Part shown: one piece after another, positions 36,594-43,587 of the stretch
How the letters are laid out: each line of letters opens with the position of its first letter
Numbering within the stretch: position 1 is the stretch's first letter
Assembly (NCBI RefSeq): GCF_014196795.1
Contig: NZ_JACIEJ010000001.1
Span: 186,001 to 250,000, forward strand
Direction: 5' to 3'
From: Sagittula marina
Lineage (GTDB): Bacteria; Pseudomonadota; Alphaproteobacteria; Rhodobacterales; Rhodobacteraceae
DNA: 64,000 bases
Notes under the pieces: model-generated
Databases searched by the model: none
What the model was told of the DNA's origin: nothing
The model's input: only the letters and a program-made list of their open reading frames with translations
Program-made: the position numbers and the translations under genes

Positions 36594-38069
36594 TCAGACG
36601 AGGTTTTCAGTCACACCCGGCATTGGTTGCGCCAGTTCAGACCCTTTGTCCTGATCGAAGGGCACCAGGAAACCGCTTCGATGTTCCGGCAGCCGCACCC
36701 CGTTGCGTTTTATTTCCGCGTCCCACCACGCCTGCAAGGTGCGGGGATGGCGGGCTTCGTCCGGCAGCGGGTTGAACCACCAATGGTCGAAGAGCTTCCT
36801 TCTCAGCAAAGCGACACGCTCCGGCTGGGTTGTTTCGACCGCCACTTCAGTGTCCCACCGCATGGACCGACCGTTCATGTTGGCTGACCCGACGATACCT
36901 ATATTGTCGTCGCTTACCAACACCTTGTTGTGAACGTATATGATGGGCGACCCGGAAAGCACAGCCTTGGATTCGCGCGCTGCAAACACCGGACGGACCG
37001 GCGCGGCAAAGGTCACGCGATCCCCAAAGGCCTCTCGCAGAGTGGCCATGGCATCACGTTCCAAGCCGAGGCCGAATTTGGCATCCACTGCTTCGTTGCC
37101 TTCGAAGGCCACATCTTCGGGGAGGGCCGGGGTCACGAAGAAGGCTGTCAGATCGGGTTTTTTCGCAGCCTCTTCGGCCAGCGCATCGGCCAGATAACCA
37201 GACCGCAGGAATTGCGTCTCTGCATAGATGAGATGCTGCGCGCTGCGGAAGGCGCTCACATAAGCGTCTTCGATCTCGTGCAACATGGAATTTGGTGACA
37301 GAAAGGGCAGCTGGAATTTGCGTGGGCAGGACAGGGTGCGCTTGATCAGCGGCAGCGCCTTTGGCTGCGTCCTTGCCCCGCAGAGCGTTTCGAAGGTCAG
37401 AAGATGCTCGCGCGCATCCTTTGCCTCCGGACCGCGTATGATCAGCTGGACATCCGACCAGGTCAGATTTGACGGAAGCTCGTGCTTGGGGGTGTCAAAG
37501 CGGCGCTCGTTCAGGTCGAGGCCGCCGACATACAGCACCTCCCCGTCGATCACCGCCAGTTTCTGGTGGTGCGTGACGGTGTGAAGCTCGGGCAGGCTGC
37601 CGCTGTCCAGACCGACGGCTTCACGGCTCAAGCGGGCGTGGCGCATCCGTTGCAGACGGCGGGAGCGCTTGATGATCGCGGCTGGCAACAACGCCAGCCA
37701 AGGCAATATTCCAGGCTTGGCCGGGTGCATGGTTGCGCGCACCTCCAGCTGGCCGGGGGAGACATCGACCATTTCGGACAGCGCGACGCCTTGGCGCACC
37801 GTACGCCAGGCAAGTTCATGCAGTGGGGTGCCGATGACGGGATCGAAGTCGCTGACCACCAATACGACTTTGACGCCGCGTTTCAAAGCATGGGCCAGCA
37901 GGTCGAACCAGTCTTCCCCTATTGCGCGGCCTTCGGGGCTGCGCAGCTTCGTGGTCATGTCAAAAATACGAAAACCGCCCAGGATCTCCGTCTTGGCGTC
38001 AAGCACAGCGCGTTCAAACTCGGGCCATGCTTCGTCCGCCGTGATGAGGACATCGAAATCAAGCGGCAT
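36594..38069 (-). CDS. Phospholipase D-like / cardiolipin synthase-like protein
   Basis: 491 residues from the ATG at 38069, which lies inside the 3' end of the upstream kinase gene (11-bp overlap, AAAAAGG upstream). Two HKD motifs are intact: HHQKLAVID in the first half and VHNKVLVSDDNIGIVGSANMNGRS-type in the second (given in part). There is no membrane anchor at the N terminus (MPLDFDVLI), unlike classical cardiolipin synthases, so it could be a cytoplasmic or peripheral phosphatidyltransferase or phospholipase. Coupling to a stress kinase and EcfG suggests membrane lipid remodelling during the general stress response. Confidence 0.88.
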   Translation of the reverse strand: MPLDFDVLITADEAWPEFERAVLDAKTEILGGFRIFDMTTKLRSPEGRAIGEDWFDLLAHALKRGVKVVLVVSDFDPVIGTPLHELAWRTVRQGVALSEMVDVSPGQLEVRATMHPAKPGILPWLALLPAAIIKRSRRLQRMRHARLSREAVGLDSGSLPELHTVTHHQKLAVIDGEVLYVGGLDLNERRFDTPKHELPSNLTWSDVQLIIRGPEAKDAREHLLTFETLCGARTQPKALPLIKRTLSCPRKFQLPFLSPNSMLHEIEDAYVSAFRSAQHLIYAETQFLRSGYLADALAEEAAKKPDLTAFFVTPALPEDVAFEGNEAVDAKFGLGLERDAMATLREAFGDRVTFAAPVRPVFAARESKAVLSGSPIIYVHNKVLVSDDNIGIVGSANMNGRSMRWDTEVAVETTQPERVALLRRKLFDHWWFNPLPDEARHPRTLQAWWDAEIKRNGVRLPEHRSGFLVPFDQDKGSELAQPMPGVTENLV

Positions 38070-39789
38070 TATTAACCTTTTTCTGAGGCGTGAACCCTCG
38101 GCGCGGGAAAGTGATTTCAAGCGCGTAGCAGTCAACCTCTCTGGAATGGGTCACTTGTCCGTCCAGTTGGCGAACAAAGGCGGTCATGAGGCGGTTTCCA
38201 AGTCCATCGGTGTTCTCAGCCTCATCGTCGGATCGGCCGTCGTCGCTCCCAACGCTGTTTTCCACCCGTAGGTTCACCATGTCTCCATCTGCCTCGCCGA
38301 CAGTGATCGAGATGCGCGGCGCGGCGTCGGACGAGGTGCCGACATACTTGTAGGCGTTGGACAGGGCTTCGGTCACAAGCATGGACAACGGAACCGCCTG
38401 ATCGGGGAACAGGGGGACGCTGGCAATCTCGCATTTCAGGACGACGGAGCCGTCGCGGGACATGGTCGAAACGTCGTCCACTACCGCCTGAATCAGATCC
38501 TGGGAATCGACAGTGGTCAGGTCGGTGGTGGTATAGAGCGTCCGGTGCAGCATCGCGAGGCCGCGCACCCGGCGCTGAAGCCCGGCAAGCATGTGGCGCG
38601 CTTCGGCGGAACGTGCAGACCGCGCCTGCATGTTCATGATCGATGCGATGAGCTGCAGGTTGTTCTTGACCCGATGGTGAACTTCTTTCAGCAACACTTC
38701 CTTGTCGTGCAGGTCCTGTTCCTGACGGGCTTCGGCGTCTGTCAGGATCAGAACCATGCGATTGAAGGCGCGCTGTGCTTCTTCCAGCTCTTCGGGGGGG
38801 TTTTGCAGCTTCAGTGGCTCGGCATGGCGCTCGCCCAAGGCAAATTGGCGCATGGCAGACCGTAACTGTTTGACGTGCCGTACGACCAGTTGTTGCAAAC
38901 CGAGAAAGGCGACCGCTATTCCGGTCAGCCACATCAGCGCCGGGAAGATCACGGCCATTCTGGCGCGTGGACCTTCGCCACTGCTGCTGGCGACGGATAC
39001 AGGCCAGCTTCCTACGAGAACCAGCACGTCGTCGATCATAGGCGCGACAGCAAAGAAACGCTCCTCTCCGTTGCCGGCAGAGGCACTGAACGTTTTGCCG
39101 ACACGCGTGACCAGTTCATCAAGCGGGACATTCTGTGGCAGGAACGTCGCGGCGGCGCGCACACCTTCGGATGCGGAAATCACTTTGCCTTCGATGTTTA
39201 CCGAGGCGAGCTTCAACTCGTTGGATGGCATCGGGTTATCCATCAACGACTCTGCCAGGGAATTGGGGATCGAAATGGACAGAATGCCGAGTGTCTCGCC
39301 GTCGAGGACCACGGGATGAGATGCGATGATGACGGGTTGCCCGGTCATCGGGCCCGATGGCAGCATCTCTACCCGGGGGCCATTTTGAGCCATCGCTTCT
39401 GCCATCATGCCAGCATCAGAGAAAACCCGCCTTTCGCCGGCGGAACTACAGTTCATCGCACCATCGGCCTGAACGTAGCTGGCATAAATGTAAGTTTGTT
39501 GATTGTTGACGAAATTGGCCAGAATTTCGTCACACGGCTCGCCCGTTGTGTTGATGACGGCCGATGCCAAACCCCGTGCGGAGCCGAGCGCTTGCTGAAT
39601 TAGCTCACGCTCGCCGCTGGCGGCTGCCATTGTCTCCGACAGCAATGCGGCGCGCGACAGAGCCTGAGCCTCGTCCACCACGACTTGCGTCTGGTAGATC
39701 GAGATCAGGCCCAGCGGCAGCATTGCCAGGGACATGAGGAACGCGATCCGCGCCCCTAGGCTTTTGGACAGGACCTTCAACACGCTCAA
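38059..39789 (-). CDS. Sensor histidine kinase (HisKA_2), probable PhyR kinase
   Basis: 576 residues if TTG 39789 is the start; a GTG two codons later is also possible. A membrane helix (residues 13-32), a periplasmic sensor region to about 275 (Cys 86 and Cys 114 could form a disulfide), a second helix (280-300), a HAMP-like linker, then HisKA_2 with EVHHRVKNNLQL (His 371/372) and a HATPase with TEALSNAYKY. HisKA_2 kinases next to ecfG typically control PhyR phosphorylation. It lies 18 bp after ecfG in the same operon. The signal sensed is unknown. Confidence 0.88.
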   Translation of the reverse strand: MSVLKVLSKSLGARIAFLMSLAMLPLGLISIYQTQVVVDEAQALSRAALLSETMAAASGERELIQQALGSARGLASAVINTTGEPCDEILANFVNNQQTYIYASYVQADGAMNCSSAGERRVFSDAGMMAEAMAQNGPRVEMLPSGPMTGQPVIIASHPVVLDGETLGILSISIPNSLAESLMDNPMPSNELKLASVNIEGKVISASEGVRAAATFLPQNVPLDELVTRVGKTFSASAGNGEERFFAVAPMIDDVLVLVGSWPVSVASSSGEGPRARMAVIFPALMWLTGIAVAFLGLQQLVVRHVKQLRSAMRQFALGERHAEPLKLQNPPEELEEAQRAFNRMVLILTDAEARQEQDLHDKEVLLKEVHHRVKNNLQLIASIMNMQARSARSAEARHMLAGLQRRVRGLAMLHRTLYTTTDLTTVDSQDLIQAVVDDVSTMSRDGSVVLKCEIASVPLFPDQAVPLSMLVTEALSNAYKYVGTSSDAAPRISITVGEADGDMVNLRVENSVGSDDGRSDDEAENTDGLGNRLMTAFVRQLDGQVTHSREVDCYALEITFPRRGFTPQKKVNNAA

Positions 39790-39807: not shown

Positions 39808-40362
39808 TCACATAGCGTGCTTTTGCGCCGCAACGATGCCTGAGGTCACCCGGTCCGTAAGTTCCAGATGCTCATTCTCGTCGAGACCCATCAGCTCCGC
39901 CAACCGCGCCCGCGCCCGGTTAACCCGGCTTTTCACGGTTCCCACAGCGACACCACAAGTTTCTGCGGCTTCTTCGTAGGAGAACCCCTCTGCACCCACC
40001 AGAACCAGCGCCTCGCGCTGTTCATCGGAGAGCGTCGCAAATGCTGTATTGAAGTCCCGCATCTGAAGGCGCCCGTCGTGGTCCGGCTTCTGGGCCAAGC
40101 TGGCCGAGAACGTCCCGTCGGGATCGCCCACTTCGCGGCGGGCCTTGCGGTGGTGGGAGTAATAGGTGTTCCGCAGGATGGTAAACAGCCAAGCCCGCAA
40201 ATTGGTTCCAGTTTCAAATGAATCGATTTTCGTCCAAGCTTTGACGAGAGAATCCTGAACCATGTCATCGGCCAAAGCCGAGTTGCCGGTCAGCGACATG
40301 GCGAACGCACGCATTGCACCCAAGTGATCGACCAACTGGTCGCGTGGATCACGATTCTGCAT
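39808..40362 (-). CDS. ecfG: ECF sigma factor EcfG, general stress response
   Basis: 184 residues from ATG 40362, which overlaps the nepR stop by 14 bp. Region 2 is FAMSLTGNSALADDMVQDSL and KAWTKIDSFETGTNLRAWLF; region 4 is LSDEQREALVLVGAEGFSYEEAAETCGVAVGTVKSRVNRAR. These are EcfG (ECF15) features. EcfG drives the general stress regulon from GGAAC-N16/17-CGTT promoters, held by NepR and released when phosphorylated PhyR binds NepR. Many such promoters lie in this window, including before nepR itself, so it is autoregulated. Confidence 0.96.
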   Translation of the reverse strand: MQNRDPRDQLVDHLGAMRAFAMSLTGNSALADDMVQDSLVKAWTKIDSFETGTNLRAWLFTILRNTYYSHHRKARREVGDPDGTFSASLAQKPDHDGRLQMRDFNTAFATLSDEQREALVLVGAEGFSYEEAAETCGVAVGTVKSRVNRARARLAELMGLDENEHLELTDRVTSGIVAAQKHAM

Positions 40363-40528
40363 TGCTGTCACCGCCTTCGGGGCCGCCGGACTCCTCGGCT
40401 GCACGAAGTTGAGCCAGAAGGTCCGTGAACCGGTCTGGCACATCTTGTTTCGTAACGTCCCCGTAGGCGCGTTTCAGATTGTCATCGATTTCCTGCTGCA
40501 CCTTTGAAGTCTTCCGATCTGAGTTCAT
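40349..40528 (-). CDS. nepR: Anti-sigma factor NepR
   Basis: 59 residues from ATG 40528; the open frame extends upstream, but the added residues (from the promoter region) do not look like protein. The NepR core is IDDNLKRAYGDVTKQDVPDRFTDLLAQLR: two helices that wrap EcfG or the sigma-like domain of PhyR. The start has only a weak ribosome site. It overlaps ecfG by 14 bp, as expected of a coupled sigma/anti-sigma pair (key residues quoted in part from 40 to 12 residues before the end). Confidence 0.95.
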   Translation of the reverse strand: MNSDRKTSKVQQEIDDNLKRAYGDVTKQDVPDRFTDLLAQLRAAEESGGPEGGDSNAES

Positions 40529-40554
40529 CTGCTGCACACTTTTGCCATCGTTTC

Positions 40555-40586
40555 GGAACTCAACACGAATGCGTGAGTTTTGTTCC
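40555..40586. promoter_or_regulatory. Two-way EcfG-type promoter element, nepR side
   Basis: 32 bp that read as an EcfG promoter on both strands. Plus: GGAAC (40555-40559), 16 nt, AGTT (40576-40579). Minus: GGAAC (40586-40582), 16 nt, TGTT (40565-40562). The minus promoter would start transcription of nepR-ecfG about 25-30 bp before its ATG. Confidence 0.6.
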
Positions 40587-40675
40587 TGCAAGCCGAAAAA
40601 AAATAGGCTGCCGCACTGCGTCCCCTGCAGTTTCGCGCGCCCACACTTCTGCCTGCACTTTTTTTCATTGTCTCG

Positions 40676-40707
40676 GGAACATAACCGGGTGCAAGGCGTT
40701 TGGTTCC
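40676..40707. promoter_or_regulatory. Two-way EcfG-type promoter element, phyR side
   Basis: Same geometry as 40555-40586. Plus: GGAAC (40676-40680), 16 nt, CGTT (40697-40700), a full match 43 bp before phyR. Minus: GGAAC (40707-40703), 16 nt, GGTT (40686-40683). The plus match is the best EcfG promoter in the locus. Confidence 0.75.
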
Positions 40708-40743
40708 CAAGCAAATGAAAAATATATTGATGGAAAGCAGACG

Positions 40744-41553
40744 ATGAGCACATCTCAGTCTTCGGATCTTACCAGCGTGATCGGCAGCAACCTGCCGTTT
40801 TTGCGTCGTTACGCACGTGCGTTAACCGGGTCACAAGAGAAGGGCGACAACTATGCCGCCGCAACTCTTGAGGCGATCCTGAGCGATTTCGACAGTTTTG
40901 ACCGTTCCATCCCCGCGAAAGTGGCTTTGTTCCGGGTGTTTCAGATGATCTGGAACAGCACGGGAGGTGCACTGGCCGACGATGCAGCCGGTTTGGCGGC
41001 AAAGGCGCAAAAGCACCTCGGCCGTCTGACACGCGACACCCGCGAGGCTTTGTTGCTGCACACAATCGAAGAGATGTCGTTCGAGGAAGTGGGTACGGTT
41101 CTGGACGTGTCCGAGGATGAAGCGCGCTCGCTCGTAGACATCGCCTATGTCGAGATGGCCAAGTCGATCAACGGCAAGGTCATGATCATCGAGGATGAGG
41201 CAATCATCGCCATGGACCTTGAGAGCATTGTTGGCGAGATGGGCCATCAGGTCACAGGCATTGCCAAGACGGAAACAGAGGCGCTGGCGCTTTATGAGCA
41301 GCAGGCTCCGGATCTGATCCTTTCGGACATTCAGCTCGCAGACCTGTCCAGCGGCGTTGACGCGGTGAACAAGATCCTTGGCGACAATTCGGACATTCCG
41401 GTGATCTTCATCACCGCTTTCCCGGAGCGTCTGCTGACGGGTGAAAGCCCTGAACCGGCGTTCCTGATTGCCAAGCCGTACACCGAAGAACAGGTGCGCT
41501 CGGCAGTGAGCCAAGCGATGTTCTTCTCCTCGACAGAGACGCTTCAGGCGTAA
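40744..41553 (+). CDS. phyR: General stress response regulator PhyR
   Basis: 269 residues from ATG 40744 (GGAAAGCAG upstream). The N-terminal 140 residues form a sigma-like domain that mimics EcfG (LPFLRRYARALTGSQEKGD; TIEEMSFEEVGTVLDVSEDE). The C-terminal receiver has acidic pocket ED at 150-151, acceptor Asp 195 (LILSDIQLAD) and the PhyR signature FITAFPERLLTGESPEP. When phosphorylated it sequesters NepR and frees EcfG. It is divergent from nepR-ecfG across a gap holding two-way EcfG promoters, and ends at a strong terminator. Confidence 0.97.
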   Translation: MSTSQSSDLTSVIGSNLPFLRRYARALTGSQEKGDNYAAATLEAILSDFDSFDRSIPAKVALFRVFQMIWNSTGGALADDAAGLAAKAQKHLGRLTRDTREALLLHTIEEMSFEEVGTVLDVSEDEARSLVDIAYVEMAKSINGKVMIIEDEAIIAMDLESIVGEMGHQVTGIAKTETEALALYEQQAPDLILSDIQLADLSSGVDAVNKILGDNSDIPVIFITAFPERLLTGESPEPAFLIAKPYTEEQVRSAVSQAMFFSSTETLQA

Positions 41554-41622: not shown

Positions 41623-42786
41623 TTAACGCGCCAGACGCTCCATCGGCAGGCTGATGTGATGGGAAAAGGTGTCCGGCGTCACGTCTGTTACGATGGTGCC
41701 CGACAATTGAGCTTCGACAGAGATGCTCAGCAGTTGCGAGCCAAAGCCGCTGCCCTTTGTCTGGGTCACGTCTTCCCAGCACTGGCCCGTCTCCGTCCAG
41801 TCGATCTCCAGCCGTTCATTCTTGACCTGCCATTGCACGCAAAGATGCCCGCCCTCGACGGACAACGCACCGTACTTCGCTGCATTCGTTGCAAGTTCAT
41901 GCACCGTGAGGGCCAGGTAAACGGCCGCTTTTGGTCCGATCCACACGTCCGGTCCGGAGAGATCCAGTCGCGCTGCGCCAGAGTAGGGCGCCAGAAGTTT
42001 TTCCAGCAGACCGTCGATTTGAGCGCCTTCGGCGTCGGGCTTGGTGTCGCTGGCCTCTACCACGGGGACAATCATGGAGTGCGCCGCATTCAGGGCGCTC
42101 AGGCGTTTTGCGATGCTTTCAGCCAGCTCGTCTACACTTGTTGCGGTGCGCCGATCCATGCGCACCATGCCATTGATCAGCGAGAACAGGTTGCGCACGC
42201 GGTGGTTCATTTCCTGCAATACCACGTCGCGTTCGCTGACGGTCTGTCGCAGCGCAAGATCGGTTTCCAGCATGGCAACAAGGTCGTTCAGGGCGTCCAG
42301 ATCGTCCTGCGTCCAGTCGCGGGGCTTGCCGTCGATAACACAAAAAGAGCCAAGCACCTCGCCGCCCGGAGCATGAATCGGCACGCCGAGGTAGGCGATC
42401 ACATTCAAATCGTGCACTGCGCCATTGTCCGACAGCACAGGATCGAGGCGTGAGTCAGCGATCATCAGAGGCTTTCCGGAGCTGACGACATATTGGCAAA
42501 AGGAGTGCGTCAGCGGTGTTCCCTGATCTTCGGATGCTTTGCCTTCAAGGCCAATGTGCGCCTTGAAGTGCTGGCGCTCGGTATCGACGTAAGAGACAAG
42601 GCTGACGGGCGCCCCGAGAATCCGGCTGGCCATACGGACGCAGCGATCGTGGGGTTTGTCAGGATGACCGGCCATCAGCCCGCTGGCCTTCAGCACATCG
42701 AGACGAACAGGATCGCTCAATTTCAGCACGTGGTCGGAGGTTTCGGCTTGTTGATGCAGTCCGCTGCCAAGTCGCATTTCCGTCAT
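41623..42786 (-). CDS. HWE-family sensor histidine kinase with GAF domain
   Basis: 387 residues. A GAF domain (about 30-185: APVSLVSYVDTERQHFKAHIG, THSFCQYVV, GSFCVIDGKPRDW) is followed by the HWE core: EMNHRVRNLFSLINGMV with the phospho-acceptor His, the family HELATNAAKYGAL, and GSGFGSQLL. No membrane segment, so it senses a cytoplasmic cue. Kinases of this class often phosphorylate PhyR or small receivers. It lies just beyond phyR, convergent, so it is a second candidate input into the stress pathway. No EcfG promoter was seen upstream. Confidence 0.88.
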   Translation of the reverse strand: MTEMRLGSGLHQQAETSDHVLKLSDPVRLDVLKASGLMAGHPDKPHDRCVRMASRILGAPVSLVSYVDTERQHFKAHIGLEGKASEDQGTPLTHSFCQYVVSSGKPLMIADSRLDPVLSDNGAVHDLNVIAYLGVPIHAPGGEVLGSFCVIDGKPRDWTQDDLDALNDLVAMLETDLALRQTVSERDVVLQEMNHRVRNLFSLINGMVRMDRRTATSVDELAESIAKRLSALNAAHSMIVPVVEASDTKPDAEGAQIDGLLEKLLAPYSGAARLDLSGPDVWIGPKAAVYLALTVHELATNAAKYGALSVEGGHLCVQWQVKNERLEIDWTETGQCWEDVTQTKGSGFGSQLLSISVEAQLSGTIVTDVTPDTFSHHISLPMERLAR

Positions 42787-42928: not shown

Positions 42929-43099
42929 TCAGCTTGAACGTCCTCGCACAGCGCGCATGATCAATGCACCGACGAAAAGAATCAAAAACAAGACGAATAG
43001 AATCTGGGCCACGCCTGCCGAAGCAGAGGCGATACCGCCAAACCCAAAGATCCCCGCGATCACGGCGACCACGAAAAACATTATTGCCCAATACAGCAT
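42929..43099 (-). CDS. DUF1328 family small membrane protein
   Basis: 56 residues: [40 protein letters not shown], then [16 protein letters not shown] (read in three parts). Two membrane helices with the family GFGGIA turn. The purine-rich AGAAAG/AAGG upstream gives a ribosome site. Function unknown; such proteins are often stress-induced. An EcfG-like promoter with a 17-nt spacer lies 39 bp upstream. Confidence 0.9.
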
Positions 43100-43137: not shown

Positions 43138-43163
43138 AACCTTTATCGGGTCGTGGAAGTTCC
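43138..43163 (-). promoter_or_regulatory. EcfG-like promoter of the DUF1328 gene
   Basis: Minus strand: GGAAC (43163-43159), 17 nt, GGTT (43141-43138). The -10 differs in one base from CGTT and the spacer is 17 rather than 16. Confidence 0.5.
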
Positions 43164-43229: not shown

Positions 43230-43254
43230 GGAACCTTTTCGCCCTAGCGGTGTT
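43230..43254 (+). promoter_or_regulatory. EcfG-type promoter of the DUF883-like gene
   Basis: GGAAC (43230-43234), 16 nt, TGTT (43251-43254), 25 bp before the start at 43279. A clear AAAAGGAGA ribosome site lies between. Confidence 0.6.
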
Positions 43255-43278
43255 GAGCAAACGAAAAGGAGATACATC

Positions 43279-43587
43279 ATGAGTGCTTCGAAAAACCCTA
43301 TTCGCAATGGCTCTGGCATGGAAAAAGCCACCGCACATGCCCGCGACGCTGTTGACAGTGCACGTGAGTCGCTCGAGGGCGGCTACACAGAGGCCCGTGA
43401 GCACGCCGCACGTGCATTCGATGCTGCAAGTGAAAGCGTCGAGGCCGCATATGAAGAGAGCGCGCTCGCTGTGCGAGATGCGCACGGTCAGCTTGAAACC
43501 ATGGTGCGTAACAACCCGACCACGGCGTTGCTTGGCGCGGCCGGTGTCGGCTTGCTCGTCGGCCTGGCGTTGAAAGCGCGTCGCTGA
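43279..43587 (+). CDS. DUF883/ElaB-YqjD-like ribosome- or membrane-associated protein
   Basis: 102 residues from ATG 43279 (AAAAGGAGA upstream). A long amphipathic Ala/Glu-rich helix (ATAHARDAVDSARESLEGG ...) ends in a Gly-zipper membrane anchor (LLGAAGVGLLVGLALKARR). This is the ElaB/YqjD layout; in E. coli those proteins attach ribosomes to the inner membrane in stationary phase. An EcfG-type promoter lies directly upstream. It heads a run of four same-strand membrane genes. Confidence 0.85.
   Translation: MSASKNPIRNGSGMEKATAHARDAVDSARESLEGGYTEAREHAARAFDAASESVEAAYEESALAVRDAHGQLETMVRNNPTTALLGAAGVGLLVGLALKARR

Follow-up and report, generated by a model that had tools for sequence, protein, structure and literature searches.

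The gap between nepR-ecfG and phyR of Sagittula marina holds two 32-bp elements, each of which is probably a single EcfG-RNA polymerase site working in both orientations, towards phyR rightward and towards nepR-ecfG leftward (rough probability 0.8, judged from sequence). The observations behind this two-way reading are the boxes with their spacing, the fact that they are conserved in either direction, and the confinement of 45 strict matches of the motif to the same intergenic gap in other genomes. All coordinates refer to the window, the whole stretch of 64,000 nucleotides that was analysed.

The gene assignments made in an earlier note on this DNA, nepR-ecfG on one side and phyR on the other, were upheld by Pfam. 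The anti-sigma factor gene nepR (40349-40528, minus strand, ATG at 40528) encodes 59 aa matching PF18557 (E 3.3e-16), and downstream of it lies ecfG (39808-40362, minus strand), encoding the general stress response ECF sigma factor with sigma regions 2 and 4 (PF04542 and PF08281), the start of which was set by judgement at the ATG at 40362. In the opposite orientation, phyR (40744-41553, plus strand, ATG at 40744) encodes the anti-sigma factor antagonist, with a sigma-like domain (PF22029, PhyR_sigma2) and a receiver (PF00072); in a protein search of named genomes, the closest PhyR was that of Sagittula salina (87 percent). Both elements lie inside the 215-bp nepR-phyR gap, upstream of nepR-ecfG and of phyR and at distances fitting for leaders, with 26 bp from the end of element 1 to the nepR ATG and 36 bp from the end of element 2 to the phyR ATG. 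The two transcription units are usually divergent and both driven by EcfG (PMC4814048). Genes for histidine kinases (HisKA_2 and HWE-type) were also detected on both sides of the cluster (38059-39789 and 41623-42786, both on the minus strand), and their products are likely sensors of the same stress response.

The two elements had been claimed at 40555-40586 (element 1, nepR-proximal) and 40676-40707 (element 2), and a letter-for-letter match was obtained at both positions, with starts 121 bp apart. Both follow the pattern GGAAC-N2-AAC-N12-GTT-N2-GTTCC, in which the claimed succession of GGAAC, 16 nt and NGTT is present in register on both strands of each element. In element 1, the phyR-ward -35 GGAAC (40555-40559, plus strand) is paired with the -10 AGTT at 40576-40579, and the nepR-ward -35 GGAAC (40582-40586, minus strand) with TGTT at 40562-40565. 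In element 2, the phyR-ward -35 GGAAC (40676-40680, plus strand) is paired with CGTT at 40697-40700, and the nepR-ward -35 GGAAC (40703-40707, minus strand) with GGTT at 40683-40686. The -10 boxes of opposite strands are 10 bp apart, and each lies two letters from the -35 of the other strand. The EcfG consensus has been given as GAAC-N16,17-C/GGTT (PMC4814048) and, in Sphingopyxis, as GGAAC-N16-CGTT with flexible -10 letters (PMC7083833); the motif and the flexibility of its -10 are also found in PMC6599016. The layout of an EcfG (ECF15) promoter (GGAAC, 16-17 nt, C/GGTT) was found on both strands of both elements, with CGTT and GGTT as the -10 boxes of element 2 and the off-consensus AGTT and TGTT as those of element 1. 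This agreement of boxes and spacers with the published consensus speaks for the two-way reading, and the sequence supports the claim that each element is a putative two-way EcfG promoter.

The outer arms are not a strong signal on their own. GGAAC-N22-GTTCC occurs twice in the window versus 0.08 expected, and 1 of 100 shuffled windows reached two; genome-wide, nine places were found versus 22 for the reversed pattern, that is, without enrichment. Both inner -10 boxes were in register at two of these nine places, which are elements 1 and 2. Counting EcfG promoters genome-wide by the bare pattern GGAAC-N16,17-CGTT proved uninformative, as it gave 88 matches versus 161 in the reversed control and hence no enrichment by pattern alone.

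The conservation of the dyad was followed in phyR loci of named genomes, fetched by the PhyR protein and blind to the motif. The best 80 of 124 matches were taken, so this set leans towards close relatives; after removal of L036, with no gap on its contig, and of two duplicate gaps, 77 distinct gaps were left. The nepR-phyR gap is short, with a median of 114 bp from one flanking protein match to the other. Among these best 80 of 124, exact GGAAC-N16/17-NGTT promoters in both directions, interleaved in one dyad, were found in 55 of the 77 gaps, compared to a mean of 0.01 and a maximum of 1 when these gaps were shuffled 200 times with dinucleotides preserved. The remaining gaps had an exact nepR-ward promoter only (16), both promoters but apart (3), a phyR-ward promoter only (1) or neither (2). 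When one mismatch or a one-letter shift was allowed, a GGAAC...GTTCC dyad was detected in 67 of the 77 (best 80 of 124), with lengths of 31, 32 and 33 bp in 7, 39 and 21 cases, a variation that the tolerated EcfG spacers would allow. Within these 67 dyads from the best 80 of 124 matches, the -35 was exact in 65 phyR-ward and 66 nepR-ward, and an NGTT -10 was present in 59 phyR-ward, in 63 nepR-ward and in 57 both ways. The earlier note had held that its proposal would be refuted if close relatives lacked the GTTCC end; that end was exact in 66 of the 67 non-Paracoccus named gaps (best 80 of 124) and carried one mismatch in the other. The ten named gaps without a dyad (best 80 of 124) correspond to all ten Paracoccus loci. 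A run of at least 5 A within 40 nt downstream of the dyad was also observed in 35 of 67 phyR-ward and 18 of 67 nepR-ward leaders (gaps L010-L089, best 80 of 124).

To offset this lean of the named genomes, an evenly drawn set of 100 Rhodobacteraceae genomes was added. PhyR was matched at 1e-50 in 47 of them; no match at this threshold was obtained in the other 53, and the cascade of the general stress response therefore looks unevenly distributed across the family. The draw yielded 49 places outside the window's own genome, of which the 45 with a divergent EcfG match upstream were counted; L254, L263, L284 and L285 were left out for having no such match in the fetched stretch, L284 being cut by the contig end and L254 being a case in which ecfG may have been taken for phyR. 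A dyad was present in 43 of the 45 gaps, with exact boxes both ways in register in 31, and the other gaps had exact boxes nepR-ward only (7), phyR-ward only (4), both ways but apart (1) or neither (2).

Scans that started from the motif, blind to genes, led to the same gap. The strict 32-bp motif with its inner boxes was found in 46 of 295 Rhodobacteraceae genomes and its reversed control in 0 of 295, and outside the window's own genome all 45 of 45 strict matches, made up of 30 loci (L090-L119), 14 loci (L143-L156) and congener G262 (L122), lay between ecfG/nepR and phyR. A relaxed motif was found in 99 of the 295 genomes, with the reversed control in 7, and of the 17 relaxed-motif loci newly fetched, 16 were inside the gap, the exception being L214; one of these loci, L221, was placed by coordinates, its contig being cut. 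The genomes behind the strict (46) and relaxed (99) counts include some without the PhyR system, and the relative samples (named, even draw and motif scans) overlap one another. Besides their single dyad, two Rhodobacteraceae loci, L150 and L153, carry a further EcfG-type site that points nepR-ward, which may be another way to add a promoter for nepR-ecfG.

Outside the family, a class-wide scan in which the two-letter offset was required gave a match in 1 of 380 genomes (G499), many of which may be without the system, and in 2 of 5 genomes inside Rhodobacteraceae. The G499 match (L120, from another family) is exact over the 32 bp and lies close to a gene for a receiver-domain protein, but no EcfG match adjoins it. 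When 116 genomes of other families were searched for PhyR, 39 had a match and gave 44 loci, of which the 22 with a divergent adjacent EcfG were counted and the 22 without were left out. These divergent EcfG promoters involve the same genes and the same boxes, EcfG-type both ways, but in 7 of the 22 they are two separate promoters placed back to back (GTTCC-N8-GGAAC in six, N6 in one), whereas in the window both are interleaved in one 32-bp dyad. The seven include L199, which the script had filed as interleaved for also having a 27-bp overlap; the other 15 had a nepR-ward promoter only (5), none (5), a phyR-ward promoter only (2), two far apart (1) or a 27-bp overlap (2). The same boxes thus stand single or separate elsewhere. 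Rhodobacteraceae seems to have adopted the interleaved arrangement, and which way this change ran is our inference. All three loci fetched from one further family (f42: L140, L203 and L204) have a 32-bp nepR-phyR dyad whose phyR-ward -10 is CATT, and both loci of another (f37: L136 and L197) have a 27-bp nepR-phyR dyad; therefore, two-way EcfG promoters may have arisen more than once. A dyad is also present in L087, titled as a MAG of Oceanicaulis. The putative interleaved two-way EcfG promoter is best described as largely characteristic of Rhodobacteraceae.

Inside the family, the Paracoccus loci without a dyad (L068, L071, L072, L074, L075, L076, L078, L080, L081 and L085) all keep an exact nepR-ward promoter. 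In Tateyamaria (L021 and L024), the dyad has CATT in place of CGTT at its two -10 boxes, a matched change on both strands. A shift in EcfG specificity was considered behind it and rejected: the only lineage-specific residues under the cut-offs used were 17, 115, 161 and 171, none of them in the stretch that we take to read the -10 box. CATT-ended sites are included in the table of EcfG-regulated genes of Sphingomonas melonis (PMC6599016), so CATT may simply work. The window itself contains a second divergent pair, a gene for a DUF1328 protein (42929-43099) and one for a small protein without Pfam match (about 43273-43587), with two separate one-way EcfG-type sites (43138-43163, minus strand, and 43230-43254, plus strand) and no dyad; it is a possible internal contrast to the dyad.

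Bidirectional promoters and EcfG autoregulation are both already known. The sigma70 bidirectional promoters described by Warman, Grainger and colleagues are one symmetric site with two possible polymerase orientations and divergent RNAs, as the dyad would be. They have a -10 element common to both directions, whereas no shared -10 was found in the dyad, which has two separate -10 boxes 10 bp apart interleaved with the -35 boxes; in addition, it would presumably be read by an ECF sigma factor whose gene is adjacent. EcfG would read both strands of the dyad, and one shared spacer would serve both promoters. If transcription begins 6-8 nt past the -10 box, about 30-35 bp would separate the two starts, which would lie at the outer ends of the dyad, and in the window the leaders made from the nearer element would be roughly 25-40 nt long. 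Starts of sigma70 bidirectional promoters are most often 18 bp apart, and also 10 or 23 (PMC12825309). As the two core promoters of a dyad overlap completely, two polymerases presumably cannot bind at once, and each element would hold one polymerase at a time. The pseudo-symmetry of the dyad and its conservation are observed; divergent transcription from it is predicted.

No description of an interleaved two-way EcfG promoter was found in the literature by title or abstract opening, a search that left subscription papers mostly uncovered. A related case is Rubellimicrobium thermophilum, in which promoters at two loci with nepR, phyR and ecfG were predicted from GGAAC-N16-17-C/GGTT (PMC12148442); in the available part of that paper, they appear as predicted arrows in a figure and their overlap is not discussed, and its main text gave 0 matches for 'bidirectional', 'divergent' and 'intergenic'. 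In our set, the dyad is present at L089, which is titled Rubellimicrobium. 'Bidirectional' also gave 0 matches in PMC8103513.

The presence of two elements in the window had been interpreted as a designed switch. This part of the proposal was not sustained, as the two-element gap is a diverged tandem duplication. The copy that holds element 1 (copy A, 40529-40605) aligned locally with the one that holds element 2 (copy B, 40649-40724) with a score of 56, compared to 29.9 +/- 4.4 when the dyads were kept and the flanks shuffled, and 0 of 1000 such shuffles reached 56. Judged from their gap sequences, three congeners have one element each, alignable with element 2, and the gap of congener G262 is identical in sequence to that of S. 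salina. The gap in the window is about 112-116 bp longer than those of the congeners, and the extra sequence adjoins nepR and holds element 1, which is the additional copy. More than one exact GGAAC-N21..23-GTTCC was found in the window only, among 114 gap entries (109 distinct); two dyads in one gap were found in 0 of the 45 even-draw gaps, and two strict matches in the window genome only in the 295-genome scan. With a single element in each of the three congeners and no second exact dyad in the other sampled gaps, a paired switch as the basic unit was rejected.

After the duplication, the nepR-proximal and phyR-proximal copies may each serve mainly their own neighbour. It is conceivable, with modest odds, that the doubled arrangement is itself a working device, in which element 1 would drive nepR-ecfG and element 2 phyR, the inward transcripts colliding over about 90 bp; this would be compatible with each element being a two-way promoter. 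Scores over four soft positions of each half-site are weak evidence that element 2 mainly serves phyR and that element 1 adds a nepR-ward site: the phyR-ward half of element 2 was the best (51st percentile) and its nepR-ward half the worst (4th percentile), and element 1 supplies another nepR-ward site. However, element 1 scores low in both directions (nepR-ward at the 13th and phyR-ward at the 16th percentile), the nepR-ward GGTT of element 2 agrees with the published C/GGTT and is shared by two congeners that have one element only, the evidence comes from one species and a four-position score, and the duplication may be neutral.

Several observations count against a two-way promoter: one direction is often off-consensus, the CATT boxes of Tateyamaria come with no lineage-specific change in the presumed -10-reading stretch of EcfG, the bare patterns are not enriched genome-wide, and the mRNA data from Rhodobacter sphaeroides given below do not fit well. 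The dyad could be one-way in practice, with a working nepR-ecfG promoter, a weak or vestigial phyR-ward half and phyR expressed mainly from another promoter, which we consider improbable. The excess of gaps with an exact nepR-ward promoter only over those with a phyR-ward one only (16 versus 1 of the 77 from the best 80 of 124) would fit this explanation, but 8 of the 16 are Paracoccus, and the bias was slight in the even draw (7 versus 4), so that the named set overstates it. All seven genomes in the genus of L054, a locus titled Cereibacter flavus, have the dyad, and its nepR-ward -10 is uniformly CGTT (7/7), with a mixed phyR-ward -10 (AGTT in 3, TGTT in 2 and CGTT in 2). In Rhodobacter sphaeroides, ecfG mRNA showed a PhyR-dependent rise under membrane stress only, a condition in which phyR mRNA was not induced, and singlet oxygen, superoxide and diamide each raised phyR mRNA 2-3 fold (PMC5830050). 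The available part of that paper gives starts for the gene in the nepR position and for RSP_1271 and names none for phyR (PMC5830050). Against a one-way dyad, a vestigial half should decay across many genera, as in Paracoccus, yet the phyR-ward -35 and NGTT are retained in 65 and 59, respectively, of the 67 named dyads (best 80 of 124), in a short gap.

That the dyad is instead the operator of a dimeric regulator, with an incidental likeness to promoters, is very unlikely: it is a near-perfect inverted repeat and in Tateyamaria both arms changed alike, but the arms are not mirror-paired, as no within-species covariation was detected in six position pairs of 39 dyads (p 0.1-0.8), the centre is not rigid, as the dyads span 31-33 bp, conservation falls largely on positions that matter in EcfG promoters, and other families and Paracoccus use the same boxes separately or singly. 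The lack of arm covariation, the variable centre and the single or separate versions elsewhere therefore favour two promoters over an operator.

If each element is a two-way promoter, freed EcfG would raise the sigma and anti-sigma factors and the anti-anti-sigma factor together, and the ratio of initiations would be set by the two half-sites, whatever the level of EcfG. By calculation, two competing sites give an initiation ratio of (kF/KF)/(kR/KR) at any enzyme level, and with two separate sites the ratio drifts with saturation, from 0.31 to 0.99 in an arbitrary example. Under this model, separate promoters, as in several other families, could not hold the ratio once saturation begins. From the sequence, mutual exclusion or a fixed-ratio output is plausible. 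That the master switch of the general stress response in Rhodobacteraceae is a fixed-ratio device, with one EcfG polymerase site used in two orientations and the output ratio set by its half-sites, is a tentative proposal about which we are doubtful. The ecfG and phyR mRNAs answer different stresses in R. sphaeroides, the gap of which was outside the examined set, and this speaks against tight coupling there. At five sigma70 bidirectional promoters of Escherichia coli, basal activity was too low for competition, which appeared when one direction was strongly activated (PMC12825309); this need for high activity counts against the dyad as the source of a fixed ratio.

The general stress response is started by a partner switch, and its threshold should depend on the ratio of PhyR to NepR and EcfG. 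If the proposal holds, one family hard-wires this ratio and several others have two promoters, which would offer a natural comparison on why positive-feedback circuits couple their parts, with Paracoccus, the sampled loci of which are without the dyad, as a ready control. The known range of bidirectional promoters would then also include one read by an ECF sigma factor and built on another geometry.
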